Source: Echinarachnius parma
Taxonomy: Eukaryota; Echinodermata; Echinoidea; Clypeasteroida; Echinarachniidae
Direction of reading: 5' to 3'
Length of the DNA stretch: 64,000 bases
Assembly (NCBI GenBank): GCA_037951105.1
Contig: JBAMJV010003044.1
Coordinates: forward strand, 1 to 64,000
Positions 6,701 through 57,300 of the stretch are shown piece by piece. The notes below the pieces were generated by a model, which had not been told where the DNA came from, made no database searches, and saw nothing but the letters and a program-made list of their open reading frames with translations. Each line of letters begins with the position of its first letter. The stretch's first letter is position 1. The translations under genes were made by a program, and so were the position numbers.

Positions 6701-9485
6701 GTCCGTCCGCACGTACGTACGTCCCGTTTTCGTTCTCGTGATAACTCAAGAACCGGTTGACGTATCAATTTCAAACTTGGTATGAGTGTACATATTGGGG
6801 TGACAATGATCTGATTAGATTTTAGTGGTCATGAGGTCAAAGGTCAAGGTCACAGGACTCAATATATATGCAAAAATGCCTCGTTCTCGCGATATCTCAA
6901 GAACCGGTAGACGGATCAATTTCAAACTTAGTATGAGTGTACATATTAGGGTGGCAATGATCTGATTAGATTTTGGGGTTCATGAGGTCAAAGGTCAAGG
7001 TCACAGGACTCAATATATGTGCTAAAATGCTTTGTTCTCGCGATATCTTAAGAACCGGTTGACGGATCAATTTCAAACGTGGTATGAGTGTACATACGCA
7101 GTCGAAGATCCATCTAGTTTTTCTTCACTTAAACCGATACATAAATTTACTTTGTCAAATTCAACCAAAATCACTCAGAGATTTCACATTTCTCTTGTAA
7201 GGGAAGTTGGAGTTATGGTAACGGAGGAATGAAATGGGTTTTGATTTTTGGAAATGTCTCCTTAATTATGTAGATAACTAAGATTGAATGAAAAGTGCTC
7301 CAGAACGCTTTTCGATGATCATAGTCAAAATCATTAGTGGGCAAAGGTGATCAAATTTGACATATTTATCACTCTTTTTTTCTAGGTGAACATTGTTCAT
7401 ATATCATTTTGAAGAATCGTACTGTGATATTGGTATATGGCTGAAGTTTTAAATACAGTGGAACATCTTTATTGCGAGGTGTTATCACAAGGTACCTGAT
7501 GAGGTTGTTTCACAGGTCCATGTTCTATGTATTTTATTATTTCTAAGCCCTGATATAACTAGGTAAATTCACTGTATCACTTTTAGAAAAATATTTTAAA
7601 GTTGATGATCACTGTAGATGAGTTTTACAATGAACTATCCATAATAATTTTTAAAAACATCTGTATCTAACATACAGTGGATCCTCTTAATAACGAGCTC
7701 TGTTATGCCGAGATCATTTCAAAGGTCCTGGTTCTATCCATATTATTGTGTTCAAGCCTAGCTGTTACAAGATATCTGATATAAGAGGTAAATTCAATGA
7801 ACCCAAGGTGCTCATTATAATGAGGTTTCACTGTATTGCATGATCTGATGAACTACTTTACCTCCTTCTGATCTCTCCTATTGTATAGTTTTGCGGCGAT
7901 ACCATCGCTGGATTGTGCCTCAATTCGCCAGCCATCATGAGACTTGTCCACACAGAGGAGCAGAGCCACTGGGTCAACGCACTTCTCAATCCCAGGTCCC
8001 TGTACATCATGAGGTGAGGTTTGTCACTATACATACAGTAAAACATAATCGTAACAAGCATGTTGGGTCAATTGATTTTACCTCGTTATATCAGATATAT
8101 TGTTATATTAGGGTTTTAAAAAATAAAATACAGAGAACCTGGACCCACCTGTGAAATCACCTCGCTATATCAGGTGTTGCACAAAGAGTTTAATTAATTG
8201 TAAAGTTACAATGAATTTAAGAAAATATGCACATTTGAACCAATCAGATTTAGTCACATGTTCTGCCTCGCAACTTAAAAATCGATTGCTTTTCTTTGTG
8301 AAACACACACCCCAGCTCTTCAAATCAAAATTTGATTTTTATATAGTTATGGAAAGAACTCTCTAAATTGATACACTGTAATTCCCCAACAAATTTAATA
8401 AAATTGAACGTAACTGTTTACTTTTAAATTTGCAATTTCTGCAAAAAAAGAGTTGCTGACATGAGACTTTGCTAGAGCTGGTTACATATACCAGCAGGGG
8501 GGTGTTTCACAAAGATTCTAAGTTGAATTCAAGTCTAAGTCGGACTTAACAATTAGGGAAAGCCATTTGTAGCCTTGAAATAAAACATATTCAAAAGCAA
8601 AAAATTGCAAGTATTTGAAACTTCCAAACAAATTAATATCAATTATTTCAAGGCTCCTCGATAACACATATAACTGATTGTATCAAACTTGATACCTTTT
8701 CAAAAGAACTATTCCAATAATTGTCAAAGAAATTAACGGCTTTCCATAATAACTAGAGTTAATTTCAACTTTGAATCTTTGTGAATCACCCCTCGGGTCT
8801 TATTTGGGTTTTGTGTTTTGTTGGTCTAATAACTCAATTTGGTGTAATGTCCCATTCGGTCCATCACTTGACTTACTTACTTACTGACTTGGGTGCACAG
8901 GACGGTGTGTCCCTTCGCTCCCCTACGAGAGATTCTGTTCCACTCAGGTCTGTTCTGGGCTATGAGCTCTGCCTCGTGTAAAGGTAGTCCCACGTCGCTC
9001 TGGGCTTGGTCTCTCCATCTTGGTCTCTCCATCTCGTCCATCACATTATGCCCCAAACTTCCACTTCCCAAACTCGACCCACAACCCCTATCAAATTTAA
9101 TCCCATGCTAAACCTTAATTCCTAATCCTCATCCACATCCTAAGCCTATAAATTCTTGATTTTTGCTTAATGTGAATTTCAGCCATAAGGTTTCCAAATT
9201 GATACTGGATTTAGAAAGGAGTTTCAAACAAATTTCAAGCAACTTGGTACAAGAATATCCAATCACTGTTAATATCTGCATTGTATCAAACACTCCATAG
9301 ATTTTGAATATGAATCAAGTACGAAATAAGTCTACATTATCTTGTTTATTTTTTACAGGGGTAAGATGCGCTATGACTACACACACGAAGTACTCAAAGA
9401 AGAAGATTCCATCTTCAAGGGAGACAGGGTTCCAAGGGGTCGCAGGATCTCAGTCATGTGTCGCAGCGAAGTGACGTCATCATGA
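3761..9485 (+). CDS. ALKBH7: ALKBH7 orthologue, mitochondrial 2-oxoglutarate/Fe(II) oxygenase (276 aa, five exons)
   Basis: Coding exons are 3761-3895, 4422-4691, 6445-6618, 7889-8013 and 9359-9485. All borders are GT/AG and phases join without a gap to a TGA at 9483. The first exon (45 aa) is rich in Arg/Lys/Ser/Leu with little acid, as expected of a mitochondrial targeting peptide; mammalian ALKBH7 acts in the mitochondrial matrix and is linked to programmed necrosis and fatty-acid metabolism. Residues 46-100 form a Ser/Thr-rich linker, making the protein longer than the human one (about 221 aa). The AlkB fold follows: iron ligands H188, D190 (HVD) and H244 (YDYTHEVL), and R264 in RGRRIS for 2-oxoglutarate. 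The 56-residue H-to-H and 20-residue H-to-R spacings match the human protein as I recall it. The start is the ATG opening the targeting peptide; an in-frame extension upstream has no similar support. Exon 5 is partly duplicated just downstream. Confidence 0.95.
5149..5926. mobile_element. piggyBac-like nonautonomous element (TTAACCCT ends)
   Basis: Starts TTAACCCTAATAGGGCC and ends GGCCCTTTTAGGGTTAA, with a subterminal inverted GGGGCCATAATGGCCCC at both ends (about 5164 and 5858). TTAACCC ends and TTAA target are typical of piggyBac; no transposase frame is present. Lies in ALKBH7 intron 2. Confidence 0.7.
6640..7110. repeat. Repeat with GTCC(G) microsatellite and three ~150-bp subunits
   Basis: A GTCCGTCC/ACGTACGT-rich head is followed by three copies of a unit containing CAAGAACCGGTTGACG, ATCAATTTCAAACTT and GAGTGTACATA, with AGGTCAAAGGTCAAGGTCAC at the end of the first two. 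Same architecture as repeats common in marine invertebrates; no family name assigned. ALKBH7 intron 3. Confidence 0.75.
7454..7576. mobile_element. TA-flanked CAGTGGAACATC short element
   Basis: TACAGTGGAACATCTTTATT at left, AGGTAAATTCACTGTA at right; member of the CAGTGRAACCTC family. Confidence 0.6.
7673..7835. mobile_element. TA-flanked CAGTGGATCCTC short element
   Basis: TACAGTGGATCCTCTTAATA at left, TATAATGAGGTTTCACTGTA at right; internal GATATCTGATATAAGAGG is shared with the copies at 8034-8175 and 14418-14606. Confidence 0.7.
8034..8175. mobile_element. Degraded CAGTGAAACCTC family copy
   Basis: TACAGTAAAACATAATCGTA at left, then TTTTACCTCGTTATATCAGATAT and CACCTCGCTATATCAGGT. The right end is truncated. 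Confidence 0.55.
8497..8794. mobile_element. GGGGTGTTTCACAAAGAT inverted-repeat element
   Basis: Left GGGGTGTTTCACAAAGATTC, right GAATCTTTGTGAATCACCCC. Near-palindromic, no frame. Related copy 47986-48297 and right-end fragment 56790-56925. Confidence 0.8.
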
Positions 9486-9513
9486 CGATGATAAGACCAT
9501 AATCTGGTTGTGC

Positions 9514-9602
9514 CAGGGTTCCAAGGGGTCGCAGGATTTCAGTCATGTGTCGCAGCGAAGTGACGTCATCATGACGATGATACAAGACCATAATCAGGTC
9601 GT
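9514..9602 (+). pseudogene. Tandem copy of the end of ALKBH7 exon 5
   Basis: Bases 9425-9513 (from CAGGGTTCCAAGGGGTCGCA through the stop codon into the 3'UTR) are repeated immediately downstream with an 89-base period and only a few differences. The copy repeats the codons for [15 protein letters not shown] and the stop, but lies after the true stop, so it is 3'UTR. Confidence 0.9.
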
Positions 9603-13662: not shown

Positions 13663-16600
13663 TCATTCTATATCATTCCTCCCTTTATGCTTCTTTTTCC
13701 TCTTTCCTCCCTTGCCAGAGTTTTGTGACTGGTTCGTTGATGCCGAGTTGTCTTGCACTCGTAGCGCATGACCCGTTGACTTGATGTGTTTGAAGAGCTT
13801 GTTGCGAGTTTGGAAGTGCGATGAACACGTGTGGCAGAAGTTCGGTACATTTGAGGCCTGCAAAGAGAAAGAAAATGAGATAAATTGTTACAACTTGTTG
13901 TGAGTTTGGAAGTTTGATGTATGTGTGTGGCAGAAGTTCAGTACATTTGAGGCCTGTAAAGAGAAAGAAAATGAGATAAGGGCCCCATTGCAGAAAGAGA
14001 TACAATCGATTGTAAGTAAGAACATTTGGGCGTTTCAACCAATCAGATTAGCACATGTGGAACGCATGACCTGACTTACAATCGATTGTATCTCTTTCTG
14101 CAATTGTTACCGGATAACTTTGTTGTCATTGGAAGGGTTGTAGCACCCTCAAAAGTTGTTACACCAACACTGAAGTAACACTGATGCATGAAAGTTTAAA
14201 ACTTGCGGGATCCAACTGTTAAACATTTTGTCAACAAATCTTTCCCAAAATGCTCGGCCTAGGCTTTGTAAACATTTACAATTTTGCAAAATCATGTGAC
14301 TTTTAGTGATAAAGTAAGCAAAAATACATTCACATTTTTTAAACCACAAAATATATTCACATGGTAGGCAGCACATTCTTATGAATTGATGCATTCATCA
14401 TATACTTAAATTTGAAATACAGTGAAACCTCATCATAAAAAGCACCTTGCAACCATTGAATTTACCTTGTTATATCAGATATCTTGTTGTATCAGGGCTT
14501 AAAAACAACAAAAATAGATAGAACCGGGACCTGTGAAGTGTGAAATGACCTCGCTATATCAGGTACCCCCTTGTAACAGAGCTCATTGTAAAGAGGTTCC
14601 ACTGTACATGTAATTGGAAATCACAAATTAACTTTTGCGGGTGTATTCACATTTTGCAGGTGATTTATAAGGTAATTTATTATAAATATGCAAACATTAA
14701 TTTGAAATGAATATTATTACTTTACCTCTGACTGCCCTGAGGATTCATGGTTGGATTTCTGCTTTTGATTCCCCTTCTCTGTTGAAGTCCTAATGAAAAG
14801 AAAAGAAGAATAAAATGTTATTATACAATTGATTTACCGTTGATAATCGTTTTTGTCGAGCCCACCGTAGGTGGAGGGAGACTAAGGGATCCAAATTGCG
14901 TCCTTCGGTCCGTCTGTCTGTCCGTGACGCTTTCAAAAATTTGAATAACTTTCCAACCCTGCATCCGATTGTCACCAAACTTGATTGGTAGATGCCCTAT
15001 ATCGGCCTCCATGATATGTTGGGTCAAGGGTCAAAGGTCAAATGTGAAAGCTTTGGGGTAAAGAGTCTATTTGGGTCGACAACTTTCCAACCCTGCATCC
15101 GTTTGTAACCAAACTTGATTGGTAGATGCCCTATATTGGCCTATATGAAATGCTGGGGTCAAAGGTCACATAAGAAGGTCAAATGTGAAAGTTTTGGGGT
15201 AAGAGTCTATTAGGGTCGATAACTTTCCAACCCTGCATCTGTTTGTAAAAAAATGTAACCAAACTCGATTGGTAGATGCCCTATATTGGCCTCAATGATA
15301 TTCTGGGGTCAAAGGTCACATATGTAGGTCAAAGGAGGTCAAATTTCAAAGTTTACCTGCAAGACTCTATAATGGCTGATAACTTTCCAACCCTGCATCT
15401 GTTTGTAACCAAACTTCATTGGCATGACTGCGCAATTGGGCGAGACACATTACGGCTATCGCCTTATTTACAACTAAGGGATCCAACACCCAAAAATTAT
15501 TTTCTTATAAATGATTCATCGCAGCCGGTAATACAACCTAGTATGACCATTTTACATTGTAGATGTGGAAAGACCAGACTACCTACCTTGAAGGAGTATG
15601 GCCTTCATCTGTTGCTGCGGTCAGACCTTCATCCATACACAGTCTCTCTTGTAAACCGGCTGCAAGCTTGTCCTCATCTGTAACCGTCTCCTTGGGCTCT
15701 TCCGCATCATTTCTATTTTTAAAGTAAAAAAGTATACAGTGGAAGTGTGTTAGGGACCATAAAAATAACTTGGGTTATATCAGGGTAAAAACAAAAGCAT
15801 ATAAAGAGCTTTTACCAGAAAAATTACCATTTTATAAGAGAGTTTTGTTTAAATATCTTTAAAACAATGTTCCACTTTACATAGATTTAAGTTTCAATCT
15901 GCCTGAAAAACTCTAGAAACCACAAAAGTTAAGGTTAGGGTAAGATTAAGGGTCCAGGGTCAAGTTTGGTTTTGGGTAAATGAAAGTTTTCATGCATCCT
16001 TTGGTAGACCACATACAGTCAGACCCAATGAACATGAACCCGAGCAACCATATTTGTGACCTTACACCACAAAACAAACGTTACGTTGTGGTGGTACTTT
16101 CTATGTTATTAGCTGAAGATTTAGGTATTTCCTGAATGAGGGTAACTTAATCTACCTATTGTGACATTTTGAGCGTCAGAAATCGTGTTTAAATATGACT
16201 TTTCATCTAATAAAAATGATCAACTTACAGGACCCCGATCTCTGAAGCGGTCCATTTCTCCCTCATTTTATAACTGCTTCAGTCATGATCCAAATCTTTG
16301 GCACTCATTTCGAGAGGGTTTGGTTAGTCCAAATATGACAAAATTATAAACCATTCTAAAGGGACTTCAACAATGTCATACGAAAATCAGCAAGATCATA
16401 TTTCCCGACTTATTGGTCATTTTGTGGTGTAAGGTCACATCTTGTTTCATCAAATGTTGCACTCACTTGAGTTTCTCTGAATTTTGGAGTAGCTCCTCTG
16501 TTAATCTCTCTGGATCCTTTGGATCCTCTGGATCTTTCTTCTTTACCTCCTCCTCCTCCTCCTCCTCATCCTCCTTCTCATCTCCGTTCATCTGGCGCTG

Positions 16601-19600
16601 CTGCCTCCGCTTCTTCTTCTGTTTCTTGGAAAGCCTGTTAATCAACAATACATGAAAGGGATCAAGTAACATTGTCCAAATCCTCAAAACTTTCTTTGCA
16701 CTCTAGCGGTTCTCACATACCTTGTTGTATTCGTATTAACAATAGAAGCATGGAAAAGTGTTCAGATCTTTAAACTATCCACTGGATACTCGTAACCATG
16801 TACAAAGTCAGTGCAATGAGTAAGTGAATATCACTTTGCACTTTTGCTCATATCTCGGCTATACAACATCCATTTAACGTGAAATCTTCACACATTACTC
16901 AGTGGACATATCAGATCACAGCAATACACATTGCATCAACCATTCATCACTTTTTGCACATGTGAACAAAGTTACCACTAATCTCTTTAAAGATAATTTT
17001 GAGTCTTGACCAGTATGGATAGTAAACCCTGAAATCTTGCAATTGATAGTACTGACGACCCCTTAAAAATCACCCTAATAAACCTAAAATATCTTCACAC
17101 GCCCTAAATTCTTGTCATTTGGTATTACTTAAAAATCCTAAAATTGTACTATTGTTAGTGCCAGAAGCACCTAAAATCACACAAGTTAATGCGCACCAAG
17201 AAAGAAGAATGAGTCAGTAAATATCACTTTGCATCTTCACTCATTACATGGTTATGACATTCATTTTACCATTGAATTTTTACACATCAGATCACAGATA
17301 TATACAACCTTTGTACTTATTTGCAAATGTCAACAATGTTACTACATCCCTTCAAATGAAAATGAAATAGTTACTTTGTTTTTGAGAAGTCCTCCTCAGC
17401 CTCTTGGTCCAGTTGAAGCTGTTCATCAGCGATGGACTTCTCTACTTCTGCAATGGCAGCCTGCTGTTGTCTAATCTTCTTTTTCTGCTTCTTCGATAAT
17501 CTGCAAAATACGTGAAATTATAGAAGCTATAACGGCTGGAATTCACAAAAGAGATATACATAAACAATGGTTTATACCATTCACTAAATCTATGAAAATT
17601 TAGATTTCCTTTTTACACATTTTATTCTTACTTCAACATTTTCAAATTTGGTAATACTTATGTTTTGCAACCTAGCTTTTATAGCTATATTATTTCATTT
17701 TTCTGCATGGTTCAGCATTAACAATGACAACTTAAACGGAGTGTCCGCGATTTGCAAGCCAAATTTCAAAAGTTGCGAGATAATTGTCTGATATGACAGA
17801 AAATGTAATTTAAGAGCTTGCCTGAACAAATTAGGGCTTGAAATCTCCTTTTATGTGGGCGATATATTCATCCCCATCCGTCTACTGGAAACTGTTCAGA
17901 CGATTTGTAAATCGCGGACACTCGCCTACAAATGTCATTGGGTATCAGGATTTCAGTTTCTTTTTTTAAAATAATTATATTAATTCCAGCCACCAGTGTA
18001 ATATACAAAAAAAAATAATGAAAACGGGACCTGCTCTACCATCTTATAACCATTTGAAAGATATAAATCTACAAGAAAAAAGGCATAGATTTGGCATGAA
18101 TGAGGGTGTGTTAGAAGCATGAGTGCACTATAAAGTAGCACCTGCCGGAATGCTCCCCAGGGAGTGGAGAGAGTGCACAATATAGTGCGGAAGTGTATCA
18201 ATCGCTGAGTTATAGATAATACAAGGCGATAGCCATAATGTGTCTCGCCCATTTGCACGTATTTATGCCAACAAAGTTTGGTTACAAACAGATGCAGCGT
18301 TGGAAAGTTATCAACCATTATAGAGTCTTGCAGGTAAGCTTTCACCTTTGACCCCAGAATATCATGGAGGCCAATATAGGGCATCTACCAATCAAATTTG
18401 GTTACAAACAGATGCAGGGTTGGAAAGTTATCAACCGTAATAGACTCTTACCCAAAAACAAAAAAATCACATTTGACCTCATTTGACCTTGACCTACTTA
18501 TGTGACCTTTGACCCCAGAATATCATGGAGGTAAATATAGGGCTTCTACCCATCAAGTTTGGTTACAAACAGATGTAGGGTTGGAAAGTTATCAACCCTA
18601 ATAGACTCTTACCCCAAAACTTTCACATTTGACCTCATTTGACCTTTGACCTACTCATGTGACCTTTGATCCCAGAATATCATGGAGGTTAATATAGGGC
18701 ATCTATCAATCAAGTGTGGTTACAAACAGATGCAGGGTTGGAAAGTTATCAACCCTAATAGACTCTTACCCCCAAACTTTCACATTTGACCTTTGACCTA
18801 CTTATGTGACCTTTGACCCCAGAATATCATGGAGGCCAATATAAGGCATCTACCAATCAAGTTTGGTTACAAACAGATGCAGGGTTGGAAAGTTATTCAA
18901 ATTTTTGAAAGGGTCACGGACAGACGGACGCAATTTAGATCCCTCCCTCCACCTACGGTGGGCTCGATAAAAATTAGATGCAGGTCCCTACTGTCCCTCT
19001 GGGAGAACAGAGCAGAACGAAACTGAAGAGGCTAACCCCGATAAATAAGTCTAAAAAAAAAAAAATCAGATTCCTTACTTAGTCTTGACTTCAAATTCAT
19101 CCTCCCCTTCATCCTCGTCCCCTTTCTCAGCCACCAGGTCCTCCAAGTCGACATCGTCGTCTTCTGCCATCATCATCTTGCTTTGCTGCCTCTGCTTCTT
19201 CTTCTGCTTCTTGGACAATCTGTAGGATATAATCATGGAAGAATAATGGCAATATTGATGATGACGGTGGTCGTGATGATGATTGTGATGATGATAATAA
19301 TAAGAAAGATGATGATAATAATAAGAATGGGTTCTTGTACAGCGCATATCAAACCAAAATAGGGTTACTATGCGCATATTAGTAAAAGTATATAGAAGGG
19401 ATAGTATGAATACAGAGACAGATTAATAGACAAAGAGGTACAATGAAAGGCTGACACATGTGAAGGCATTGTACAAATATTCATTTAAAAAATAAGTTTA
19501 AAAATAACTTTGAAAATTGCCCTACAACTCTTCAATTGATGACGGTAATGATGATAGTCATGATGATGATGACGATGATGATGACGACAACGATGATGAT

Positions 19601-22600
19601 GATGATGATGAAAATGATATAGATGAAGATGATGCTAATAAAAAATATTTAAAAGATGCAACTTAAATAAAGATACAAATTAATGTTATCTTATAATTAC
19701 AATTTATTCCTCACTTTTTTCTTGGTTGCTCCTGGATAGCCTCTTCCGATTCTTCATCATCATCCTCCAACTCGGCAACCAATTCTCCGTCCTCTGAATC
19801 CACCTTCTTCTCCTCAACATCATCTCCATCTTCCTCCACATCCTCCTCCTCCTCCTCCTCTTCTTCCCCTTCCAGGCTCTCCTCCTCTTCCTCCTCCTCC
19901 TCCCCCATAAACTCTTCTTCTTCAGCCTCCATTTCAGCTTTCAACATGGCCATGTTTTCCTTGTGTTTTTTGGAATTTTCATGATTTGCAAACCTGTAAT
20001 TTAAGTAAAATACATATATACTGTATACAAGTCATCATATTATTCAACGACTTATCAAGTGGTTTATTAGGAGTTTTCATTAAACATTACTTAAGTTCAA
20101 ATTACATGTAATCTTTTATAAAGACTAAATGTTTGTAAAGTTATAATACATTATCCTGTACTAGACTAAGTGAAACAGATGAAACAGGCAGATACACAGT
20201 GTTACTTTCATACGCCAATAATCAGCATTCTTCTACCGAGACGTGCCCACAGCACAACAAAAAGAACGGAACATCTATGCGACTGCATGGAGCATCCATT
20301 CTTTTTGTCATGCCATGGGCAAGTCTTGGTAGACAATGCCAAATAATCTATCCAGAATTTCAGATCAGTGGGCAGACTCACGCTTTGGGGCTCTTGAAGC
20401 TCTTGTTGCAGGCCACACAGAACAGGTCGTTCAACTCTTCCTCTGAGCTCTCGGCCTGGGAATCTACAACATACAACAAAACAAAGGTAGATAATAGTCT
20501 TAATTTTTGTTTCAATTGATGTATCTAATTAAAAATTACATTAAAAAAGAAGATTGCAAAGATGTTCATATCACATATAAAATTGAAATAGGTGACGTTG
20601 AAATGAATAGCCATAACATACAGACTCAGATACCAGTGAGAACATGTTATTTTGAATTCTTAGTTAGGCAAAATAAAAGATTGTAGTTCACTCCAAAACA
20701 ATTATATTATGTATTTAGTAACTCGGATAAAAAAAATCCATTGCTCAAAATTACACTGGCAATCTAGCCGGGGATCAACAAAATTGTATTTGCCTGGCAG
20801 GGCAAAGACCTAGATCAGGGGTGTGAGACCTCCGATTTAAATCGGAATTCCGACTTTTTGCCTCAAACAGCAATCTTCATTTTCCGCTTATTTTTAATTT
20901 CTAATTTCCGATTATTTTAAATTTCCGATTATTTTGAGTATTAGCACTCAATGGTTTAGCATATTTTTTATGACATATCGAGTGCTACAGTGTATAACGT
21001 TCAATTTCGTATTTAGCACATGTGGAAATCGCACACCCGAACGCGCGCCTGTGCTAGCTATACACTATACCCGTAGCGCTAGCATGCACACCGTACCGCC
21101 GAGTGACACGGCTGCATCGAGCCTTGAACCCCGGCGCGGCGCGGCTTAAGGTAAGGGACTTTTCATTTCCGATTTTTTCCGATTTTTGGGGGGATCTTGC
21201 TCTCACACCCCTGCTAGATAGAAGAGGTATCTTTCAGATTGGTTCTGACCATCAGGGGAGATACATTTTGAGTAGGCCTGGGACGGATACCTTTTTTGCT
21301 GTTCGAATATTGGATCAGAAAGATATTCGGATAAACAGGATATCCAAATCATTTGTAAATACTATAATTTGTTTGTTTGTTTTTTGCGCTCCACCCTATA
21401 ATAAAGTCTTTTTTTCTCTCTCGTAATGGAGCTATGATATACTCTTACTAATATATATTGATGTCGATTGTTTTAAATATCATACATGATAAAACACTAC
21501 CAAAAACACTAAAATTATGGTGATAATTCTTCATTCAATCACATTATTCGGATATTAGGATATTTCTCCCAGGCCTAATTTTGAGCCATGGATTTTGGTA
21601 GTGATATAGTACCTGAGTCTTCTTCTTCGCTGTCCATTCCAAACTCAGCGTTGAGCTTGGCTTCCATTTCCTTCAGTTCTTTCTCCATCTCTTCCCTCGC
21701 AGCCTGCCCTTGCGCCGCCAACTCCTCATGCATCCTACAAAAACAGAATAAATAAATTAATGAACTAGCTCGAAACAGAAATTTAATTTAGTTACTTGCC
21801 TAACTTTGCAACTTTTCACTATGGGACAAAATAGCTGTGTTTTGAGGTCATCTAATCAAGGGGGTCATACAGGTTTATTTAACCCATCAAGGAAGAGAGC
21901 TATTTCAAGGCAAAATTGATCATTATTTCCCTCGACAAATTGGCAACTACTCATGTTTTTCTTCCTTTTAATGACATCAAAATATAGCTTGGCTTCCATT
22001 CCCTTCAGTTCTTTCTCCATCTCCTCTCTCGCAGCCTGCCCTTGGGCCGCCAACTCCTCATGCATCCTACAAAAACAGTTTAAATAAATTTAATAAAATA
22101 GCTCAAAACAGAAATTTTACTTAATTACTTGCCTAAATGTGCAACTTTTCTCTATGGCACTTGCTCGGGGCAAGTACAAATTGTATCGGGCAAGTAAAAT
22201 TTCATAAATAGCCTTATTTGCTTGCATGATCATGGAACTTTATAGTTGTAAAACTACAAGAGAACAATGTCATTTTATATGTGTGTTAATCTCATCTAGA
22301 AGTGAGAGGGCAAGTAAATTATATAATTGGGGGAAGTAAAATTTCAAAATGTATGATTTTACTTGCCTGAATGGGCCAGTACAGAAAAAGGTTAGTGTGG
22401 AGACTTGACTATGGGACAACCTAGCTGTGTTTTGAGGTCATACAAGTTTTTTTTAAAGCTTATTAATTAAACATTCTTGACCAAGAAATGACAAGAAAAT
22501 AATCATTATGAACCATGAGTAATGAATCAAAGCCTTACTTTGCTCTCTCATTTCTCTCCCTCTCTCTCCTCTCCAGCTCAAGACGTTTCTTCTCAACCGC

Positions 22601-25600
22601 CTTTTCTTCCATCAGTTTCTAAACGCAGACGACAAGAGAAAAGGACAACAAAAGATTGTTCATAATATTTATTTATCATGAAAACCTCATAACACCTGTT
22701 TTTTTGTCTGTGATATGAAAAGCAATTCAATAAAAATATGTAAACAGACAAAATAAAAACTTATAAAAATCATACTGAAAGTAAATATAATTAAACAGGC
22801 AAAAGAATATTGAAATCATTATTGCCATCAACATTCACTGTGAAAACATACCTGCCAGTGGACCACCCAAGAAATATCATTATTTAATATATCAGAAATA
22901 CAAAATTTTAAAAAATACTTTATAAGCAGGCGACCTATACATACAGGCAGTTTCTAGAAGAAGAACTGTATTGATAAATTTCATATAATGTGCTAAAGTT
23001 TATGTATTGTCCACTTCACTGAAACTGAATAGCTACATGACCCTGTTGCAGAAAGATTTACAATCGATTGTAAGTCAGATCATGTGTTCTCAGTGCACAA
23101 ATGTAATAGATTGCAACAAGCAAATTTTCTGGCTTACACTTAATTGTAACTTACCATCGATTGTATCTCTTTCTGCAACGGGGCACATGTCTACATAAGA
23201 AAAGTATGCCCGTGAAAGCACTCGTCCCAGTGATACTTGCATTGAACATCAATATGCCCACCAGCACCCACATCATATTAAATCATTGTTTAACCTATTG
23301 TCTATGGAATCTGGCGGGTCCTGCATTAACTCTATGGGGAATGTAAAATGTTGTAGCAAGCAAGTTAAGATGAGAAGAAAGCTGTGTGTAGATTATACTT
23401 ACTCTGTGAACTTGTACTCTTTTGTCCTTCTTCCTCACGTAAGAGACTAAAAGCTGAGGAAACAAAACACACATAATATGGGTTACGGAATGTGCACAGA
23501 AAATAATGCCTCCGGCCACTTTGTTGGCAGAAGAATAAAAAGTCAAAGTGATGTTTTCACATGCAAATAATAAAGCTGAAGTTATCTTACCCATAAGAAT
23601 ATAAGCACATCATTGGGTATCTATCTATCCATCTATCTATTTACCTGTCTGACAATCAGTGCAATCATTTTGTTTTTCAGCCTGTCTGTCTATCTATTGA
23701 TAATGTAATCCATCCATCCTTTCATGTATCCACCCACCTATCTTCTCTTCTATCTATCCATAAAACCATCTATCAATATAAATATGTATTTCTCTATCTA
23801 CATGTATCTATAGATCTATAGATCCATCCATCCATCCATCCATCCATCCATCCATCCATCCATCCATCCATCCATCCATCCATCCATCCATCCATCCATC
23901 CATCCATCCATCCATCCATCCATCCATCCATCCATCCATCCATCCATCCATCCATCCATCCATCCATCCATCCATCCATCCATCCATCCATCCATCCATC
24001 CATCCATCCATCCATCCATCCATCCATCCATCCATCCATCCATCCATCCATCCATCCATCCATCCATCCATCTATCTATCTATATACCATCCATCTATGC
24101 CTCACCTGAACCTGTTGGTTCCATGCCTTCTTGGCAGCCTCTCTCTTCTTCTTGTTATCTTTCTCCATGAGACGTGCCACACGTCTGTTTGGAGCTCCGC
24201 GCACGTCATACTCCTCGACCCAGATGAACGAGCGGGATGTACGGTAACTCTGCCAGTAGGCATAGAACTCATGGACAACCTGAAGACAAAAAAAAGATCA
24301 ACCACAAAAAGCATTGCGGACGTTGGTTAGTGTTCTCATTTGGGAAAGCATGGGTCTGAAAAAGGTCAAACTTCTTGACCCAACACATAAGATACCGTAA
24401 ACCAGGGTGACCCTGGCCACATTTTGAGAAGGGTGTATTTTCATCAGGCCTCACATTTAAATTTGATCCCCAATATGCAATATTCTGCAAGAAAGTTAAT
24501 GTTCTTTTAAAGATATATGTCAGAAAAAATAAATCAATATTAAAATTCTCCACCAAAATGAAAGAGAATGATGAATGGTTACTCTGCCAGTAGGTGTATT
24601 ACTCTTGAACAACATCAAGAGAAAAAAAGATAATATAAGTACTGTGCTTGCAAGTTAAATTTGAAATTTTCATGGAAGATATCTTTTAATCATTATGCAA
24701 CAGAAAATGTGTTCAGCGTAAATTTATGTAACCTGTCTATAGTGATCACGTTATTGTCTCCTAAGGTGGTCACTATACACAGGTTTGACTGTACATACTC
24801 CAAACCCTGGCGCGCATTGCAACTCTTTGTCGTTTGTAGGCAATAGTGAGTGTTGATTTTACCTCTTCATAAGAGCTCTTCGAGTCGCCAAAGCCCGAGA
24901 TGGCATCTGCATCGGAATCATCGTCCTTCATGTAGCGAATGTCCTCCTGAGCAATCTTGTCAAACACCTCGCGGTACACAGGATAGAATCCCTGAGCGAA
25001 GAAAAGAAAGGAATCAGCAAAGTTAACTGTAAAAATGTTACATTATGTCCTGAGGAAAGGAAACATGTCCAATATGCGAGGGTTTGATTCAGTACTGAAC
25101 TGAACCTCAGATTTTCCATAAAAAGAAACAAAGAATTTCTTTGTTTAGTGCAACGATAAATAAATGTTTTATAATTTATTGCCGAGTACTACATTTTTTA
25201 CAATGGGGACCCCTCATATAAGTACATTCAAGTTTATCTGATCATGCGATACACCTCCACTGAAGGTGAAAATCTTCTGGGTAGAAATAATTGTTATCAC
25301 TTCAATAGGTTTACTATATTTGTTTAAAAGTTACCTCATCATCATCTCCATAACCAGTGTACGCAGCGGGGCTCATGTATTGCATCACATCCATAAAGTC
25401 ATCGTCATAGTCTCCTCCAAAGCCTTTATGAAATGGGAGGCAATGAAATAGTAAACATTACTAAATTTTCAATTTGTCGACCTCTAGAGATGAACACTCA
25501 AACAAATGCATTATGCTGCAAGTTGACATTGTATTTCATCTCATAAGAATTATCTTAAAAACCAAACATATATAATTTTAGATTTACTTTTTATGATAAA

Positions 25601-32239: not shown

Positions 32240-35200
32240 TTACTTGGAGAGGGAGGGGAATTCCTCCTCGTTGTCGACGGCGATTTGAGACTCGTCGCGG
32301 TATCTTCCTCCCCTTGGGCCACCGCCCATGCGGCCTCCACGACCACCGGGCTCACGACGGTCACGATCATCACGACGGTCACGGTCATCACGACGGTCTC
32401 CACCACGGTCTCCACCGCGATCTCCTCCACGACCACGGCCACCACCACGCTCTCCGCCACGGCCACCGCCTCCACGTCCACCGCGGCCCCCACGACCTCC
32501 GCGTCCACCACGGCCGCTGGATGTGTCGGCAAAGTGGATGTCCAGAAGGGCAGAGGCATCGGCCTTGGTATGACGGTCCTTCACGAAGGTCTCAGCATTT
32601 TGCTGGAATAGTTAAGAATTTGACAGGGAGAGAATGAAAGGAATTGATCATTAAATAACTTTGCTAAAATATGGCAGTAAGTAGTCAGACATTCTATACT
32701 CCCGATCTCGCCAACTGTGCTGGGAAACTTTGAACATTGAGTTTTTTGTGTGTGCAAGCATTACAAGGATAATATTCGATATACAATTGTGTGAAAAATC
32801 CTGCAAAAATCTATGAACAGAATAAGCAAAGATCATGAAAATAAGACACATTTTAAATACTAGAGAGCTGAATGACTTACTTGCCCTTTCTTGGTAGACC
32901 CCTTCCTGCCATTTGAGGGTAATTAATCTGCAATCGCAACATTTCCCTACACAAAAACCTGTCATTCAAAATGCTAACAAATATTGATACCTTGCTTGTC
33001 CTTGAGTAAAAGGTCCATCGCCAGTCTTCTTTTCCCCCTTCAAAACTCATCATAAGTATGCATACTTGGACAGGGCTTGACACTAGCACTTGCAAGTAAA
33101 AATTGATGTCGGGCAAGATAATTGAACTAATTGACAAGTTCGCTTCCCTAATCGGGCAACTAAAAAACAATTTAAAGTACAAGAAAACAATGGAATTTAA
33201 TGTGTAAATCTTATCTAGAAGAGAGGGGGCAAGACAATTTTTAATCTGGGCACGTAAAACGTAAAAATTTGTGATTTTGCCTAAACGGACATTACAGCAA
33301 TAGTTTAGATGCTTACTTGGAAAAATATCTTCTTTGTTTTAACCAAGATTAAATAAATCAAATGGATCACTAAAAGACTAAAACATACTTGTCCTTCCTC
33401 CTTGATAGGCTCCTTCTTGAGTGCATAGGTCAGTTTCCACCGTCTTTCGCTTGTCCCCAAGATAAAAACTAATAAGGACGAAGTCGAACGCTTGGGAAAG
33501 ATCAATCAGATTTTCTAAAGGAAGATTATATTTATTAAATGGATCACTAAAAGACTGAAACATACTTGTCCTTCCTCCTTGATAGGCTCCTTCTTGATGA
33601 CGTAGGTCTGTTTCCACTGGGAGGTATCCTCTCCCTCGCCGGCGCGGCGGGTTTTGAATTCGGTCTTGACGCGGTCCTTGTTCATCACGGCCTTCCATTC
33701 GTCCAGGGTCATTTCTTTCTCCTCCAGCTCCTTCGCTGCAATTTCGTCGGCATTCTCGGTGTTCTCGCCACCCTCTGCAGGAACAGCAGGCCTGTGGATT
33801 CACAAGTAGCAAGAAAACAAGGTAAGAAGAGTGGTTATAGATTCAAGGTTCATACACTTTATTTTCAAAATTCTGGTAAACAAGGTTCGTGAACTTCTTG
33901 TAACAAATTGGTGCAACTGCAATACCTGCAAGTGAAAAGATTGGCATCGTAGTATATTAGTCTATTCCCGACTTTCCAAGGCCTAGAAAACACACAAGAC
34001 AAATTCCATTACTTTCCAGGTCTTGTTAGACTTGCTCAGCTTGTGATCCAAAAATGGTTTCCTGTCTACATGTAGGCTTCTTCACATTCAGAATTTAATT
34101 GGATGAACTGGCTTAAATGTTCCCTGTTGAGTGAATATTGCAATTTGTGTGTTGGATTGTCAAGTGCACTTGTTATGAAGGTAATAACACCAATAATCCA
34201 CTTGGGTTAAAGTGGATAAGTGTAGTAGATATTCTTGTACATTTATTAAGTTATTAAATAAGGCCTGTAAAGATTCCACATATCCCCTTAGATACCATTT
34301 TCATTTTAAAAGGTAATACTTGTCAAAAAATATTGATTTCTATGAAAGAACATACAAAGTTATCACATACAATATTTTTTTCATAACGAAAACTCACGTT
34401 TCTGGATTTCCGGTTGATTCTCCTTCGGTCTGTTGGTATTCAGGGTTGGCATTTTCCTCGCTCACGTTGGAGGTGTTCAGATCCCTGCATGAAGACGATC
34501 GGGGGGGGGGGGGGGGGGGGGGGGGGAATACAAAAAACATTGATTGAATGGCAATTGTTTTGTAAATTAACACCACAGTAACAGACAATTGTCTGATAAA
34601 GTTACAGTTCAAGTTCAAGTTTAAAGTGAATGTTAGTGTCCTATCAGAAATTTGTTTTGTTAACACGTTTTCACCACTCATGAATACAAATATTATACAT
34701 GTACATAACTTTTTGCAGATCACTTTATACAATTGATACGTTAGCATAGTTAAATCATCACTTTTATATTTCTAGTGTGTGGCACATGTTTCTGTATTGT
34801 ATTAAAGTGGAAGGCAGAAATCAGTATCAAATAAAGATGGCATTGGACACAAATTTCCAGTTTACTTTGGATTTTACAGAAGTAGAAATGAAAGTGAAAT
34901 AGAGTAGCTAGAGAGTAGTATCTTCCAAGTCAAGTTGGTCAACAATCTTCAAAAAGGGTGCTGTTTTTTTGTTCGACTACCTTAATAAATGTAATCTAAT
35001 CTGATCTGTATTGTAATAAGCTATTCTGTTGCGCATGCTAAAAATGTGCTTATTAGAACAGTTTTTACATTTGATTTCAAAACATTTCACAAAACTATCG
35101 ACAAACATGAAAGAACAAAATTTAATGTCTCCATCTTTTTTTCCACATCTAAGCAAATATAGAATGGGACTATCATGCAAAACAAAAGTTCTCAATCACA

Positions 35201-38200
35201 ATATCACATTTTGCACATGCGCAACAAAAGACTTCTATTGACTAACGACACATCACAGGTTCACATGGGGTAATATACATGTATTTTGGTGATTGACATA
35301 GTGATGCAGCAGAGATAGGGACCACTTTGTGTTTGTAATGTTTGATTTTACTTGCTGGCAGGGCTACAGAGGAAAAACATTTAACTGAGTATTATAATGG
35401 GTCTTATTCTGAAGAAAAATATTCCAGAAAACTGCTTATCTACTAAAATTAGAGACAGCTGGGGGACCCAAAGCTTGGGATTTTATTATTTTTTTAAGCA
35501 TTGCGAATCAGAATAGAAGAGACCGTCGGCAGGAACAGTTGTGTGGGCTTACTCAATACTAGAAATTAGCACAGCTTAGAGCTACCAAATTTCATTGATG
35601 CTAGATTCCACTGGCCTGAAAGGACAACCAAATTGAAATATAATATAGAATTGTTCATGCTTTCTTTTTAGATTTGGGCTACCAGATTCCAGTTATCAGG
35701 GACACTCATATTTTGAATAATCTTGAGCCCTGCTGATCAGAAAAGTTCTAAGAGACTGTCAGCAGAAAGATTTGTACGGACTTACTTGACATCGTCCTTG
35801 ATGTTGCCCCAGTTGTGCGAGCCACTGCCCTCCCGCTTCTCCTGGCCCTTGACTGAGCTGCTGGAAGACCGATAGAGGAATGGAACCCATTGGAGGCAGG
35901 TGTATTTGATTGACATGTGCAGGCAGGGTCATGTACAAGTGTTAGGGGAGAGTATAGGGGTGTTAGGGGCGAGTATATGGGTGTAGGGGTGAGTAGAGGT
36001 GTAAGGGAGTGTAGGGGTGTGGGAGGGGGTACAAGGGTATAGGAGGACAAAACCAACATATAAATAACGAGGAAAAGCAATGCATGGTAGAAGGAAAACA
36101 GGAATGGAAGAAGAAGAAGGGAAAGCAGTGTAACAGATAAACAAAGCAGGGGCGTACATTCAATGAGTGTGGGATTGAGTAGTGTACATCACAAACACGT
36201 CAATGAAGATGGAGGGTGTATGTTCATGTTGCAATGCAGGATAGTAATGACAGGTATGTTGATAAAGTGGGACAAGAAAAGGGCAACAAAGGTGGGCCAA
36301 GAATCAGAGATAAAGAAGGAGAAATAACCATGCAAGATAAGAGACGTGAAGGGGGATACAAGAAAGAGGTAAAACAGCAGAAAAAGACAAAAACAAGACA
36401 AAAGAATGTGGGGAACACATAACATGCAGGTGGATGTATAGCAATGGGAAAGGGGAAGAGAGAGCAGAAACAATAATAAATAAATAAATAATCACTGCTA
36501 AAAAAACAGGAAAGGCCGGCCCACAGAGGTAAACATAAAACTGATGAGCAAGCAGCTTCTATACAATACTAAATATGTGCCACTATAGAAAGTCTATGAA
36601 TGGTGACATGCAGATAAACACTGTATAAACATTTATATAGAAATAACCTTCAACACCAAGTGCAACTTTTTTCTCGCAAAAGACTAATAAAATAATGCTT
36701 AAATCTGCCCAGAAAGGTTTTGATTAAAATGTTTGTAACAGCCATGATGCGGTAAAGAGCAAAAGACATCAACCATTTATCCCTTAGAGAAATGGTACGG
36801 TCAACTGGTCATAGTCCATAAAGTTTGCCACTCGGTTTATCTGCATGTATCATTGTATGTTGTGTCTTGATCCATAAATATTTTTACCATCTACCATCTA
36901 AGACTTAATATAGCAAATTGTTCTAAACTGTCATTTTATCCTGGTGTAGTTAGTAATCACAATCCAGGTAACGTTGATCTCTCGGTCAGGGGTGCACATA
37001 TTGCCACAAGCAGGGAATTTTTTTCTTTTCTTTTTCGGGGGTTACTTTTCAAGCTTGCCTGCATGAAAATAACACTCTAAAAAAATGACTTCATTGAACT
37101 CCATGCAAATTTATGGGGGCTCTTCTGGGGGCAAATTCGCCCTGAATCCCCGTGTATTGGTTTCACTGGCCAGAAGTACCCTGACCACTTAACAGAAAAC
37201 TAACCACCCACCAAATATCCCTTGTAACCAAGCCAACACTATTAGTAAACCCCACACCCTGGACATCTAGCAAGGGAAATGTTTGCTTCAGAATAAATAC
37301 CACAGCCCACAACTGCTCCAGGTAGTCATTCCTTTGTAGTTAGGCGCTTAATGACCATCACATCAACTATGTGGAACAAGACAAGATGACCTCAACTCTT
37401 TTCAGGCAGCGAGCTTAGCCTTACTGAAGTCTTCTTTCTAACCATCTGTATCACAACATGTACCTGAATCACTAACTAAATCATTGAATGCCAATTTCGA
37501 ATTAACATTTTAGATTCTAGCAGACAACTTGAAAAAAAAAAAGAGTTCTCTTGTCAGTTCCACATCGTCAACATATTAATCAAAAGTACCTGATGTTCAG
37601 TTGGTAAGTTGCTCATGTGGTAGTTGTCCCTAAAAGATAGAACCCCCGATATCTACATCTTACTCAAAATAAAGTAGACAATCTCATATTATCACATGCA
37701 TAAAGTAATGAGTACCTAATGTGATAAGGTTAGGTGTCTACTTCATTCGGAGTGCTACGTATCTTTCTGTAAAACTAACCTCTTGTCAGACCCGCTGTGC
37801 CTGTCGAATTCCCTCCTGCCTCCTCTGCCTCCTCGGCCTTCGAAGCTGCCACCACGTCCACCGCCGCTGCCGCGACCACCTCTTCCCCTGCCACGCCCTC
37901 CTCTGTACGGCCTCTCACCATCGCGGTACTCGCGAGGGGGCCTCTCCCCCTGCTGGAAGTCACGTGGGGGCCTGTCACTGTCCCCCCTGCTACTCCTGTA
38001 GTCTGACGGTGCCTGGTTCTCTTGGTTCTCTAGATGGCTGTCCTGGCCTTCGCCAGACCTCCTGTTGTCCCTGGGAGGGTTTCTCCTTGGGCCACCTGGG
38101 CCACCACGGCCTCCCCTTGGGGCACCACCTTCTCTTCTTCTGCCAGCATCCGGCCTCTCACTTCTGTCTTGCCTCGAGTCTACATAAAGATAAGAGATAC

Positions 38201-39725: not shown

Positions 39726-40861
39726 TGTGATAAAATCCTTCTTTTACTGAAGGATTGAAGAGATATTTAACGCTATAAAACGCGTTCTTGCTCTGTAATT
39801 CCCGACATTAAAGATGGCGATAATGTGAATAGTACATAAGTCAATGAGGAGCACGCGCGGAAATCATGCAGTGCAATTCAATGCAGCGCTCGCTGCATGG
39901 TTAACTTTTTACTACGCACATTTCGCATGTTTACATCGGTTTCGGACCCGTATGCTACCTATATCTCCATACATATTGGTATGCACATGTATTTTTATTG
40001 GCGCGCCATAATGCCAATATACCGTCCATGTGCGTGCGTCGGGTCGGCAGGATGTTTCATTTATAATATTTTATTTTTTTGCAAAATCATAAAAATATTA
40101 ATTTCACACATAATGAAGAAGGTAGATTTCATACTTATATTAAATATATGTTTCTTCAACACCGTACATCAAAGATGTTGTTTTAATAGATAGGTAATAT
40201 AATTAACATGCAATTTGCATGAAATGGAATAGTCCAATTTAAAGGTCTTACCAAAGAACTAAAAGAAAAAAAAAGGGTCCTGTGCATTGTACGTGATATT
40301 GATGAGAGAAAAATCTTAGTTTTGAGAAATAGTGGATCTCTCTATTACTCTTTCTTATAAAGAAGTCCTTTGCTGAATGGCACTAGCAATATGAGTAATT
40401 TTAATATTCACATGATGACATTACACATAATTATACAGAATTAGTAAGTAACCATATAAGGTATATGTATGTTCGCTCATAATTTGTAAGGGATCGTCTT
40501 TATGGTTAGCAAAAATCCGAAATGTAAAAAGATATACCGGTAAATTAATTATTTTGAATTGAACATAAATATAACGATATAATTAGTTTATATTCTAACT
40601 TACAGTATTGGACGGAAATAAACCGTCTACTCTCTACTTCTATAAAGAATGCATAATATAAAACATTTCTGAGTTTATCCCTTTAAAGAGCCCGCTCGCG
40701 CTCGAAATCGCAAACACACAGTTCGCTGCACTCGGGATTTTCGGGGCGCCAAATTTGAGATCCGTTGTTGTAAGCGCGCGTAATATATTGTACACAATAC
40801 GCCCATACTGACAGTCGCTGAACAGCTGTGTAATTGTAGACCAAGACAGCAAATTGCAAAT
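39726..40861. promoter_or_regulatory. Shared intergenic region between SERBP1 (-) and ZNF367 (+)
   Basis: About 1.1 kb separates the two divergent start codons. It has GC-richer patches near 39840-40050 and 40680-40800 and an AT-rich middle. Both promoters must lie here unless an untranslated first exon was missed. No TATA box stands out. Confidence 0.6.
40746..40753 (+). promoter_or_regulatory. E2F-like site upstream of ZNF367
   Basis: GCGCCAAA, the reverse of the E2F consensus TTTGGCGC, lies 109 bases before the ZNF367 ATG in a locally GC-rich stretch (40680-40800). Proliferation-linked expression of mammalian ZNF367 makes an E2F site plausible; function is inferred. Confidence 0.45.
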
Positions 40862-43433
<2,572 letters not shown>

Positions 43434-52580: not shown

Positions 52581-52587
52581 AAAAGAC

Positions 52588-53181: not shown

Positions 53182-53371
53182 CTGTAAACGTTATTTTCGC
53201 GAGATTAATATTTCGCTCTGAGCGAAACAAAAACACATTCGCGGCCTTTTAATTTCGCGGCCAAGAAAGTGTTCACACACATTGCAAATCGCGCATTTAT
53301 ATTCGCGGGTTTTAATATTTGCGGACGCCGACTTCAGCGCAAAATCCGCGAACATTACCACGTTTACAGTA
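53182..53371. mobile_element. TACTGTAAACG inverted-repeat element, nested
   Basis: Left TACTGTAAACGTTATTTTCG, right ACCACGTTTACAGTA, interior rich in TTCGCGG/CCGCGAA. It lies between TTAACCCATTCAGG (53128) and CCTGAATGGGTTTTAA (53396), which look like the ends of an older element. Confidence 0.75.
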
Positions 53372-54326: not shown

Positions 54327-57300
54327 CTAGTGGCTGCGGTCCAGAGCATCCAGGAACTTGTTGGGGATGAGGAAGGGTACTAGCTTGTGCCTGCAGAAGA
54401 AAAATGTTGGAAAAAGAATAATGAATATCCTCGCAAATTTAGCATTTCTCTCATTTTCATCCATGATTACAAATGGAGAGGTTAACCCGTTGCTTGCGGG
54501 AACCGGGTGGGCTATGTACAAAGTCTATGGGGATTTCAGAATCTCGTATTGAACGGGATGAGAAAATGTGTCAAATATGTAGTGGACTCTTCTTTGTTTT
54601 GTTTTTTTACATATAATGACAAAATATTTGAGGTCTTAAATTACAAACATTTATTGTCCAGATTGTTATAACTAGGCTATCACAAATAATCCATTACTTT
54701 ACTTATTCCACTGGTCTCGAAGACTATTTTAAAAGTTCACTTTACTTTACAAAAATTGTGGAGCACTTTAATAATTTGAAATGTAAACATATATTTATAA
54801 GTAATGTCTGGTAAAAATACAAGGCTCAGTAAAATGAAGATAATCTGGATGCAGGGCTATATGGAGAAGCCATCATGTGATACTGTCAAACCTCTGTGTG
54901 TAGTGAACGACCAAGGGAACAAAGAAAAGTGGCCACTGTACAGGTAACTTCTATAGACAGGTTCCTCAAAACTGTTTTCCTTGGCAGGGGATAATTTTTG
55001 ATTGCCCGATAGGCAGTTTGACGGCTATAGACAGGAAGCAACTAAGGAAGGTTTAACTGTATTCAAATAATATCAGAAGAACAATTCAGTTTGACTGACC
55101 TGATAGGTAAAAACATGAGGATGAGAAGTGGGAAGACCATCTTGAGGTAGGGCCAGGGGGAGAAGCCGAACCCGCACAGCAATCCTAGCTGCACCAGCTG
55201 CACCCCGGTGAACATGTGCATCTTGCGCTGGGGCACCCGCCGCACGTAATGGTTGGGTGGGTAGGCCGACTGTAGGATAAGATACAGAAAGATGCAAGAT
55301 TTAATACATAAACCAACACCATAATCATAGGTACAAAAACCATCTACATCAACACCATCATCTCACTTTATGGTTGGGAGGGTAGGACGTCGGAGGGAAA
55401 GATGCAATATGTTTCATACGGTGTGGCAAGATTGGTAGAGCGCATGCCTTCCAATCACGAGGACTTGAGTTTGAATCCAGAGTATGCCCATTGCGTTTTT
55501 CCTTCAGCAAGAATATTCATCCACATTTGCTGCTCTCAAGCCAGGTGTATGAATGGGTACCCGGAAGGATGGAACGTAGTTCCTTAGCATTGTGTGCACC
55601 TACAAGGTTGCCTGGCTGGAATACTCCCCAGGGAGTAGAAAACGTGCACTTTGTGTGCTGGATTGAGTGCAGTATGCATCCATTAACCGGGGTAATAGTA
55701 TTATTGTAAAGCGCTTAGAGATGATATCATATTAGGTGCTATATAAATCAAAGATATTATTATTGTGTAAATTAGCATGATCATCGTTATCAACATTATC
55801 ACCACGACTTTCACAATAATCTACATCATTACATTTCCTATCATATTCATCGCCGTCATTGTCATCGTTAGCGGAACCGCCAACAAAGGATTAACATAAG
55901 GCAATCGGTAGACCATAAAAGTCATTTTTGTGATTGCTTCTTTAAAGATAGTCAAGCAAGGAGATTCTACACCGCGGATTGCCATTTTGAACTAGGACCC
56001 ATGCGCAAGGCATTTGCAAGATGGCGGCCGAACCACATTTAATATTATATTGTTATTAAAATTAAATTATTTTACCTGCTCAGTGATGAGGAGCATGATG
56101 CGTTCGAACAGCTGGTTTCCATCCAGGGCCGTGTAGGCGATGTAGAGGAAGAGTCCGTATAGCACTGCCTTGGGTATGTACTGCAGTGGCACGGGCAGCA
56201 TGAGGATGGACAGGCCGATCAAGATGTGAGATAGCAGCACTGTCAGTCGCGTCTCTCGCACTCTCACGATTCTAAACAAAATATATATATATATATATAT
56301 ATATTACTGCTATGCAATTTATGTTGGAATTGAAACCATCTCCCTGTACAAACATAGCACAACGAGGGAATGTAAAGGAAGAGATTGTATAGTGCTGCCT
56401 TGGGATTTGTAGTACAGTGGCATTGGCAGCATTAGCATCTAGACACGACTGATTCTACTAAAAACCAAAAGATAATAAACGCTGTGAAAGATATGTTTAT
56501 GTAATGGTAGAGACTTGTCTAGAAACGCAACTTTTGTTCAAAGTACAGTGGTCTTCATGGAAAGTTCATTGACTGTTTACTGATATCCCCCACATTACTA
56601 GAAGTTCAAGGCCTTCATGAGATGCACCTGTGGAATAAAATGTACCTCAAATTTGTATAGCATTATTGAATATATAACGGCCCTACGGACAGATATATAT
56701 ATATATTTTCTAATCATCAAAGAGATTTCATGAATTTTATGTAAAGATTATGAATCTCTTTGATAATTAGAAAAAATATATATGATTTGAATCAACATTT
56801 TATGCATTTCAACATAACTTTTATAAAAACTGTTTCAAGACGCTAATGGCTTTCCATAATATTTAAGACCATCTTAGTGCTATGATCAACTTAGGATCTT
56901 TGTGAAACACCCCCCAGAGCAATAGGTACAAAAGGAAGCCACGTCAGAAGAGTCCCACGCACTATCAAACTTTTTTTTTAGGAGAAATAATGTCATCTAT
57001 GACCCACCACCACAAATCAACCTTCAGGTTAGCAAATGAAAGTTTGTTAATGGTACTCTTTTAAAATACAGATTGTAAGTTTCTAATCTCGATATAGATT
57101 GTGTTATATGGTTTAGGCACACCATATTGATTAGTAATCAGAATTCTAGAACTCCATAAAAACTTTTAAAAGTCTCATCTATATACTATATAGATCATGT
57201 AATATGGTCTAGACAAACCATATAGATTAGTAATCAGAAATTTAAATCAACAGCTATAAAAGCTATACAATTTCAGAATTAATTGAAGAGAAAATGGTCC

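Follow-up and report, generated by a model that had tools for sequence, protein, structure and literature searches.

Local same-strand copies of exon pieces beside exons in four genes of Echinarachnius parma

Why do pieces of exons recur within a few hundred bases of the exons themselves in several genes of one contig, and is the exon itself the cause? We address this in a window of 64,000 nt from Echinarachnius parma (assembly GCA_037951105.1, contig JBAMJV010003044.1, positions 1 to 64,000, forward strand), which was chosen for its exon-copy pattern. It contains ALKBH7 on the + strand (PDB chain 4qkd_A, E 4.7e-69) and, on the - strand, DNAJC21 (from protein homologues), a SERBP1-like gene (Pfam HABP4_PAI-RBP1) and the C-terminal part of an SLC4A11-like transporter (7x1g_A, E 4.3e-98). 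The fifth gene is a C2H2 zinc-finger gene at 40855-43433 on the + strand (Pfam), which we take to resemble ZNF367. Sea urchins provide the best matches of the assembled DNAJC21 draft – 73% over 51% of the query for Strongylocentrotus purpuratus, 71% over 51% for Lytechinus pictus, and 51% over 100% for Diadema antillarum. Exon borders were read by eye, giving a set of 34 exons (5740 bp, 9.0% of the window) from which one DNAJC21 exon is probably absent. A candidate SERBP1 exon at 38478-38510 reads into a stop, and was removed before the exon tests.

Self-alignment of the window with base-by-base realignment gives six strong direct pairs, with offsets of 89, 96, 332, 334, 177, and 230. The exon-piece copies belong to ALKBH7, DNAJC21 (three exons), SERBP1, and the SLC4A11-like gene, and lie 89-334 bp from their sources (Table 1). 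An ungapped diagonal scan was run with a cut-off score of 18, a level that no segment attained when the window was block-shuffled five times. The occurrence of exon-edge copies is confirmed, as the original prediction had it: exon fragments repeat locally and in the same orientation, with the listed pairs recovered and all of them direct. Four of the five genes were said to be affected, and the zinc-finger gene indeed has no copy at z of at least 5 in the exon scans; the copies were described as of mixed age, and the divergence of the pairs spans 3% to 24%; and the SERBP1 exon 5 copy was said to cover the 5′ splice site, where its donor is intact. Four probable copies had been overlooked, at 32880-32908 (a candidate), 35480-35619, and 38440-38542 (marginal) in SERBP1 and at 54770-54871 in the SLC4A11-like gene.

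Table 1. Positions of exon pieces, their local copies, and associated inserts and spacers in the window
Feature	Positions	Strand	Match
ALKBH7 terminal exon (final coding codons, stop, 3′ UTR), first unit of 89-bp head-to-tail duplication	9425..9513	+	
ALKBH7 duplication unit 2, now 3′ UTR	9514..9602	+	84/87 aligned bases identical
DNAJC21 last-exon start and 3′ splice site; functional unit of 96-bp tandem duplication	13798..13893	-	
DNAJC21 last-exon start, decaying upstream copy; acceptor TTTACAG intact	13894..13979	-	
MITE-like element (inverted ends) interrupting the DNAJC21 last-exon copy of 96 bp	13980..14102	.	
DNAJC21 exon 8 start, 3′ splice site, and intron 7 end; putative source of ~198-bp copy	21654..21851	-	
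Spacer between DNAJC21 exon 8 copy and source, ~134 bp	21852..21985	-	
DNAJC21 exon 8 start, upstream copy; acceptor intact, split by inserted repeat	21986..22441	-	
Inserted repeat (~244 bp) in DNAJC21 exon 8 copy, flanked by short CCATAG near-repeat	22161..22404	.	
DNAJC21 exon 5 start and 3′ splice site, putative source	24214..24294	-	
DNAJC21 exon 5 start, old copy; acceptor AG lost, in-frame stop	24548..24628	-	62/81 identical
SERBP1 exon 5 donor segment, candidate third, old copy	32880..32908	-	score 25.5, 0/1000 shuffles
SERBP1 exon 5 end, copy; donor GTATGT intact, 81-bp unrelated spacer between	33345..33440	-	88/95 identical
SERBP1 exon 5 end and 5′ splice site, putative source	33522..33617	-	
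SERBP1 exon 35785-35870, end and donor side, old copy	35480..35619	-	score 31.0, shuffle maximum 21.0 (300)
SLC4A11-like exon D 3′ part and donor side, old copy	54770..54871	-	score 27.5, shuffle maximum 23.5 (300)
SLC4A11-like exon D, putative source of two decayed copies	55099..55269	-	
SLC4A11-like exon D start and acceptor side, old copy	55364..55419	-	score 27.0, shuffle maximum 18.5 (300)
SLC4A11-like exon C, putative source	56076..56270	-	
SLC4A11-like exon C middle, old copy	56365..56453	-	score 41.5, shuffle maximum 23.0 (300)

Two pairs, in ALKBH7 and the DNAJC21 last exon, abut head to tail, unlike those of SERBP1 and DNAJC21 exon 8. The ALKBH7 copy repeats the last codons, the stop, and UTR sequence and lies within the 3′ UTR of the terminal exon rather than in an intron; aligned as 9425-9511/9514-9602, the units differ by about 3% plus a 2-base gap, and the exon part by one synonymous and no non-synonymous change. 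A difference of ~3% is typical of sea-urchin heterozygosity, and the ALKBH7 pair could thus be seen as two haplotypes joined in tandem during assembly. As an account of the copies, such an artefact is extremely improbable, because the other pairs are 7-24% diverged, two have repeats inserted in one copy only, and one has lost a splice signal. One of these insertions is in the DNAJC21 last-exon pair (13798-13883/13894-13979, 77/86 identical), where the MITE-like element is flanked by GAGATAA and ATTGTTAC, which adjoin each other in the source. The last-exon copy differs at 2 synonymous and 6 non-synonymous positions and, read in frame, has one zinc-finger cysteine replaced and reaches a stop. 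There are two copies of the MITE-like element, at 13980-14102 and 23046-23192, with inverted ends TTGCAGAAAGA...TCTTTCTGCAA, the right end of the former being a few bases shorter than that of the latter.

The DNAJC21 exon 8 and SERBP1 exon 5 pairs are also young, and have spacers. The exon 8 copy (21654-21827/21986-22160) matches at 158/174 positions, including 77/81 in the exon part with 3 synonymous differences and one non-synonymous, and keeps the acceptor TTTTTGTAG. It resumes past the inserted repeat (21815-21851/22405-22441), where the last 24 bases alone are matched in 0/1000 shuffles, so that about 198 bp was copied. A 332-bp tandem unit including the spacer was considered for this exon and first scored 28.5 against a shuffle maximum of 21.0, with 20 points coming from the block already matched; beyond that block there is no detectable relation between the spacer and the stretch upstream of the copy (score 14.0, equalled in 183/1000 shuffles), and the upstream half, at 10.5, stays below the shuffle maximum (11.5). 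The 332-bp unit was therefore dropped, leaving two abutting pairs rather than three, raising the rating of repair at a break, discussed below, and slightly lowering that of the main reading. The SERBP1 exon 5 pair extends over 96 bp at 93%, with 2 synonymous and 3 non-synonymous differences, and no relation of its spacer to either flank was detected (196 and 295 of 300 shuffles score as high). As both spacers are unrelated to their flanks, the process does not appear to be purely one of tandem duplication; the young spaced pairs look like copies inserted near their source, or tandems later interrupted at the joint. Of the local tandem duplication originally proposed, a recurrent local same-strand process thus stands, and its tandem form is supported only in part.

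The remaining copies are older or weaker. The DNAJC21 exon 5 copy gives a weak tblastn match (E 0.17) and has 6 synonymous and 10 non-synonymous differences; 22/300 shuffles equal the score of its spacer against the flank. For SLC4A11-like exon C, 55/68 positions are identical in the core (56140-56207/56370-56438), and 24/300 shuffles equal the spacer score; at these levels both old pairs are compatible with either an abutting or a spaced origin. The acceptor-side pair of exon D (55243-55307/55364-55419) is weak, yet none of 300 shuffles matches its score. Exon D appears to be flanked on both sides by its own decayed partial copies (55364-55419 and 54770-54871). In SERBP1, the 35480-35619 copy is mostly intron, with per-exon scans giving it no more than z 3.2 and 2.7, and an RGG exon copy at 38440-38542 is marginal (score 21.0 against a shuffle maximum of 19.5, 0/300 shuffles; per-exon z 5.2 and 4.4). 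A gappy match between a SERBP1 exon and the RGG exon end (z 7.0) is of low complexity by eye, and was not counted as a copy. The expectation that most DNAJC21 and SLC4A11-like copies span the 3′ splice site is borne out for DNAJC21 (3/3); in the SLC4A11-like gene it applies, within the aligned part, only to the copy of exon D, and not to that of exon C.

Orientation and range were compared by scanning the 34 exons against three 700 bp rings on each side, direct and inverted, at z of at least 5. In the nearest ring (up to 700 bp) there are direct matches in 11/65 exon-side tests, or 8 once three of low complexity are removed, and in the outer rings in 3/63 and 2/66; four of these outer matches are coding LSKKQKK exons of DNAJC21 matching each other, and the fifth is a gappy SERBP1 exon-region match. 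Mutual matches of DNAJC21 exons 10 and 11 and a match of exon 7 are of low complexity by eye, and are not regarded as copies. No inverted match reaches z of 5 in any ring (0/65, 0/63, and 0/66; 0/194 over 2.1 kb), the highest inverted z being 4.6. With direct matches nearby and inverted ones lacking, the process is same-strand and short-range.

These features bear on the possibility that all or most of the copies are repair-mediated, with synthesis-dependent strand annealing copying a nearby exon edge into an intron break in place of tandem slippage. In the sections of Pace et al. (2009; PMC2671141) that deal with proximal duplications, 824 human examples with a mean of 162 bp are described, formed by a process continuous in time; 4 of the 824 proximal donors are listed as partial exon/intron, and pairs within 50 bp are excluded as tandem duplications. 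The SERBP1 and DNAJC21 exon 8 copies are what such repair predicts, being separated from their sources by spacers of 81 and ~134 bp that show no relation to the flanking sequence, and the sizes and distances are within the range given there for the proximal class, with 753/1,136 within 3 kb. The SERBP1, DNAJC21 exon 8 and exon 5, and SLC4A11-like exon C copies are 50 bp or longer, each with one donor that lies within 5 kb but more than 50 bp away; the abutting pairs do not show this combination. Those two pairs have the very form left out in that account as tandem duplication, and none of the 194 inverted tests yields a copy at z of at least 5, whereas an inverted exon copy is named in the same source (PMC2671141). 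We therefore consider repair as the general cause to be a serious possibility, although somewhat short of even.

What has become of the copies? The DNAJC21 copies sit in introns, and the exons on either side align collinearly with the DNAJC21 of relatives. In the four intron copies of DNAJC21 (three) and SERBP1, the exon parts contain 20 non-synonymous and 13 synonymous differences, a mixture that comparison of an unconstrained copy with a constrained one should give, although exon 8 is poor in non-synonymous change (n=4). Signs of decay include stops, a lost AG, and a lost zinc ligand, and two copies carry repeat insertions. In none were both splice sites seen – the aligned parts hold at most one – and no whole exon copy with acceptor, donor, and an open frame is present among them. 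Neutrality is supported, and judged from their sequences the intronic copies look non-functional; the exon 8 copy, with an intact acceptor and a single non-synonymous change among four exon differences, counts against this.

Intact acceptors in the DNAJC21 last-exon and exon 8 copies and the intact SERBP1 exon 5 donor would also be expected if some copies worked as alternative exons or as decoys for splicing, and echinoid DNAJC21 does retain three coding LSKKQKK exon copies. We judge such use to be very unlikely for the copies described here, because none was seen with both splice sites, the last-exon acceptor runs into a stop, splicing from the SERBP1 copy's donor would bring in a stop soon after the genuine donor, and the AG is gone from the exon 5 copy. 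The coding triplet consists of exons at 19078-19221, 17374-17502, and 16466-16636 (- strand), each starting RLSKKQKKK. Among sea urchin relatives there are three KKQK motifs in P0001, P0002, P0004, and P0005 and two in P0003; there is one in the listed crinoid, brittle star, and sea cucumbers and in two of three sea stars, and none in Asterias. Among the 120 relatives listed, four have three KKQK motifs and four have two. It seems likely from these comparisons that an exon triplication has been kept as coding sequence in echinoid DNAJC21, a gene in which new coding exons thus seem to have come from local duplication.

In our view the copies are likely to be neutral remnants left by small local duplications on the same strand, the spare exon piece being spliced out. 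About 70-200 bp would be copied and placed 89-334 bp away, either head to tail or behind a short unrelated spacer. Where an exon edge was duplicated, one exon would stay whole with its splice site in working order, and a spare piece would come to lie in the adjacent intron – upstream of the exon in acceptor-side events and downstream in donor-side events – there to be spliced out and decay. The molecular cause may be slippage during replication, or a template switch within the same strand where a DNA end has stalled or broken, with the spaced pairs representing templated insertions. With one copy under coding constraint, exon-anchored pairs would be recognisable for longer than intron-only pairs.

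Whether exons are hit more often than introns was assessed with nine hand-picked direct two-copy pairs with offsets of up to 1000. Simple repeats, multi-copy arrays, and families with more copies in the window (such as 10842/10961, 16815/17208, and 5167/5854) were excluded, as were pair 2127/3315 (1188 apart) and the weaker pairs (SLC4A11-like exon D, the later-found SERBP1 copies, and 54770-54871). A random pair overlaps an exon by at least 15 bases with probability 0.16 to 0.32, allowing for two copies. Six of the nine pairs are exonic, with P=0.005 for random placement and P=0.064 if the detection time of exon-anchored pairs is doubled, a factor argued from the constraint on one copy rather than measured. 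In an age-matched set (divergence up to 10.5% for exonic and 20% for non-exonic pairs) 4/7 are exonic (P=0.049), and counting seven non-exonic tandem arrays as events gives P=0.35 (age-matched, 4/14) and 0.11 (6/16). Non-exonic local pairs are also present (51320/51616, 57092/57188, and 57553/58332), as are non-exonic tandem arrays at 6730, 14945, 18344, 46193, and 62903.

Other repeats were seen in the window. A tandem-unit family is found inside DNAJC21 at 14850-15422 and 18223-18980 (~157 bp units in the latter), in opposite orientations. A long array of ~80-bp units occupies 62603-63770, with inverted relatives at 54880-55061 and 60067-60272. The direct pair 2127-2417/3315-3606 (~290 bp, 82%, 1.2 kb apart) lies outside the genes as read.

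The nominal P=0.005 and borderline age-matched P=0.049 are possible signs of exon bias that count against a simple neutral-duplication reading, and would be expected if exon neighbourhoods were preferred duplication sites in this genome, for instance through transcription or base composition. Copies at z of at least 10 lie beside 6/34 exons as compared to 10/350 control intervals, 4 of those 10 overlapping exon copies, and at z of at least 5 beside 9/34 exons (two of low complexity) as compared to 36/350 controls; this excess was set aside as a basis for the link, because the control intervals overlap mutually and some are exon copies. Such a preference is unlikely, given P=0.064 with doubled detection time, 0.11-0.35 with the arrays, and a window chosen for the pattern, and for these reasons we regard the exon link as unproven. 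The longer recognisability of coding sequence, already raised as a caveat in the original interpretation, suffices for the exon excess at this sample size. The proposed enrichment of splice-site-proximal sequence is rejected, because 4/6 observed pairs straddle an exon edge, which is the chance rate: 67% of random 96 bp placements that overlap exons do so.

A broader proposition, that same-strand short-range copying in echinoids falls on transcribed exon edges at a higher rate than on adjoining intron, we likewise hold to be quite unlikely. If true, many introns near conserved exons would contain degenerating exon fragments whose splice sites are still live, a lasting reservoir from which decoy sites and further coding exons, like those of the DNAJC21 triplet, could be drawn. 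An exon bias that was real genome-wide and age-matched would point to a mutation process tied to gene structure. As neutral relics, exon-anchored pairs could act as slow clocks in which one copy is held by selection and the other decays, and their count and age could be read as a simple gauge of how often small duplications arise in a genome; they also show a possible origin of decoy splice sites.

How do these copies compare with known systems? Among the entries listed by a brief literature search there was no report on partial exon copies in echinoids, which says little. Tandem exon duplication is a familiar class in which local exon sequence is copied within a gene; it shares with the pairs here the local copying in the same gene, and differs in that only part of an exon is copied here and no more than one splice site was seen per copy, whereas the DNAJC21 LSKKQKK exon triplet fits the class. 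The small tandem duplications or doublets of Thomas et al. (2004) and Messer and Arndt (2007), as summarized in PMC2671141, are similar in having adjacent or nearby copies of tens to hundreds of bases, although doublets are identical or nearly so and the pairs here are 3-24% diverged. The proximal class of Pace et al. resembles them in its short local duplicates with a spacer, its exon/intron edges and UTRs, and its neutral divergence, and differs, as presented in PMC2671141, in being from vertebrates, while our copies surround echinoid coding exons and are in direct orientation only. Regional tandem duplication in Drosophila genes is discussed by Lehmann et al. (2010; PMC2891723), whose text cites 1901 duplications in natural lines, mostly tandem and with a median of 367 nt. 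The intron gain or shift described in that text also involves regional duplication within genes with one copy turned intronic, although the duplication creates a new intron, and here the copy seems to lie inside a pre-existing one. Duplication of exon edges, whether as small tandems or by repair as in the proximal class, is thus a known and published process (PMC2671141, PMC2891723). The present set belongs to these two kinds, and relative to the sets presented in those two sources the copies described here are distinct in their taxon, their direct-only orientation, and their crowding in one window.
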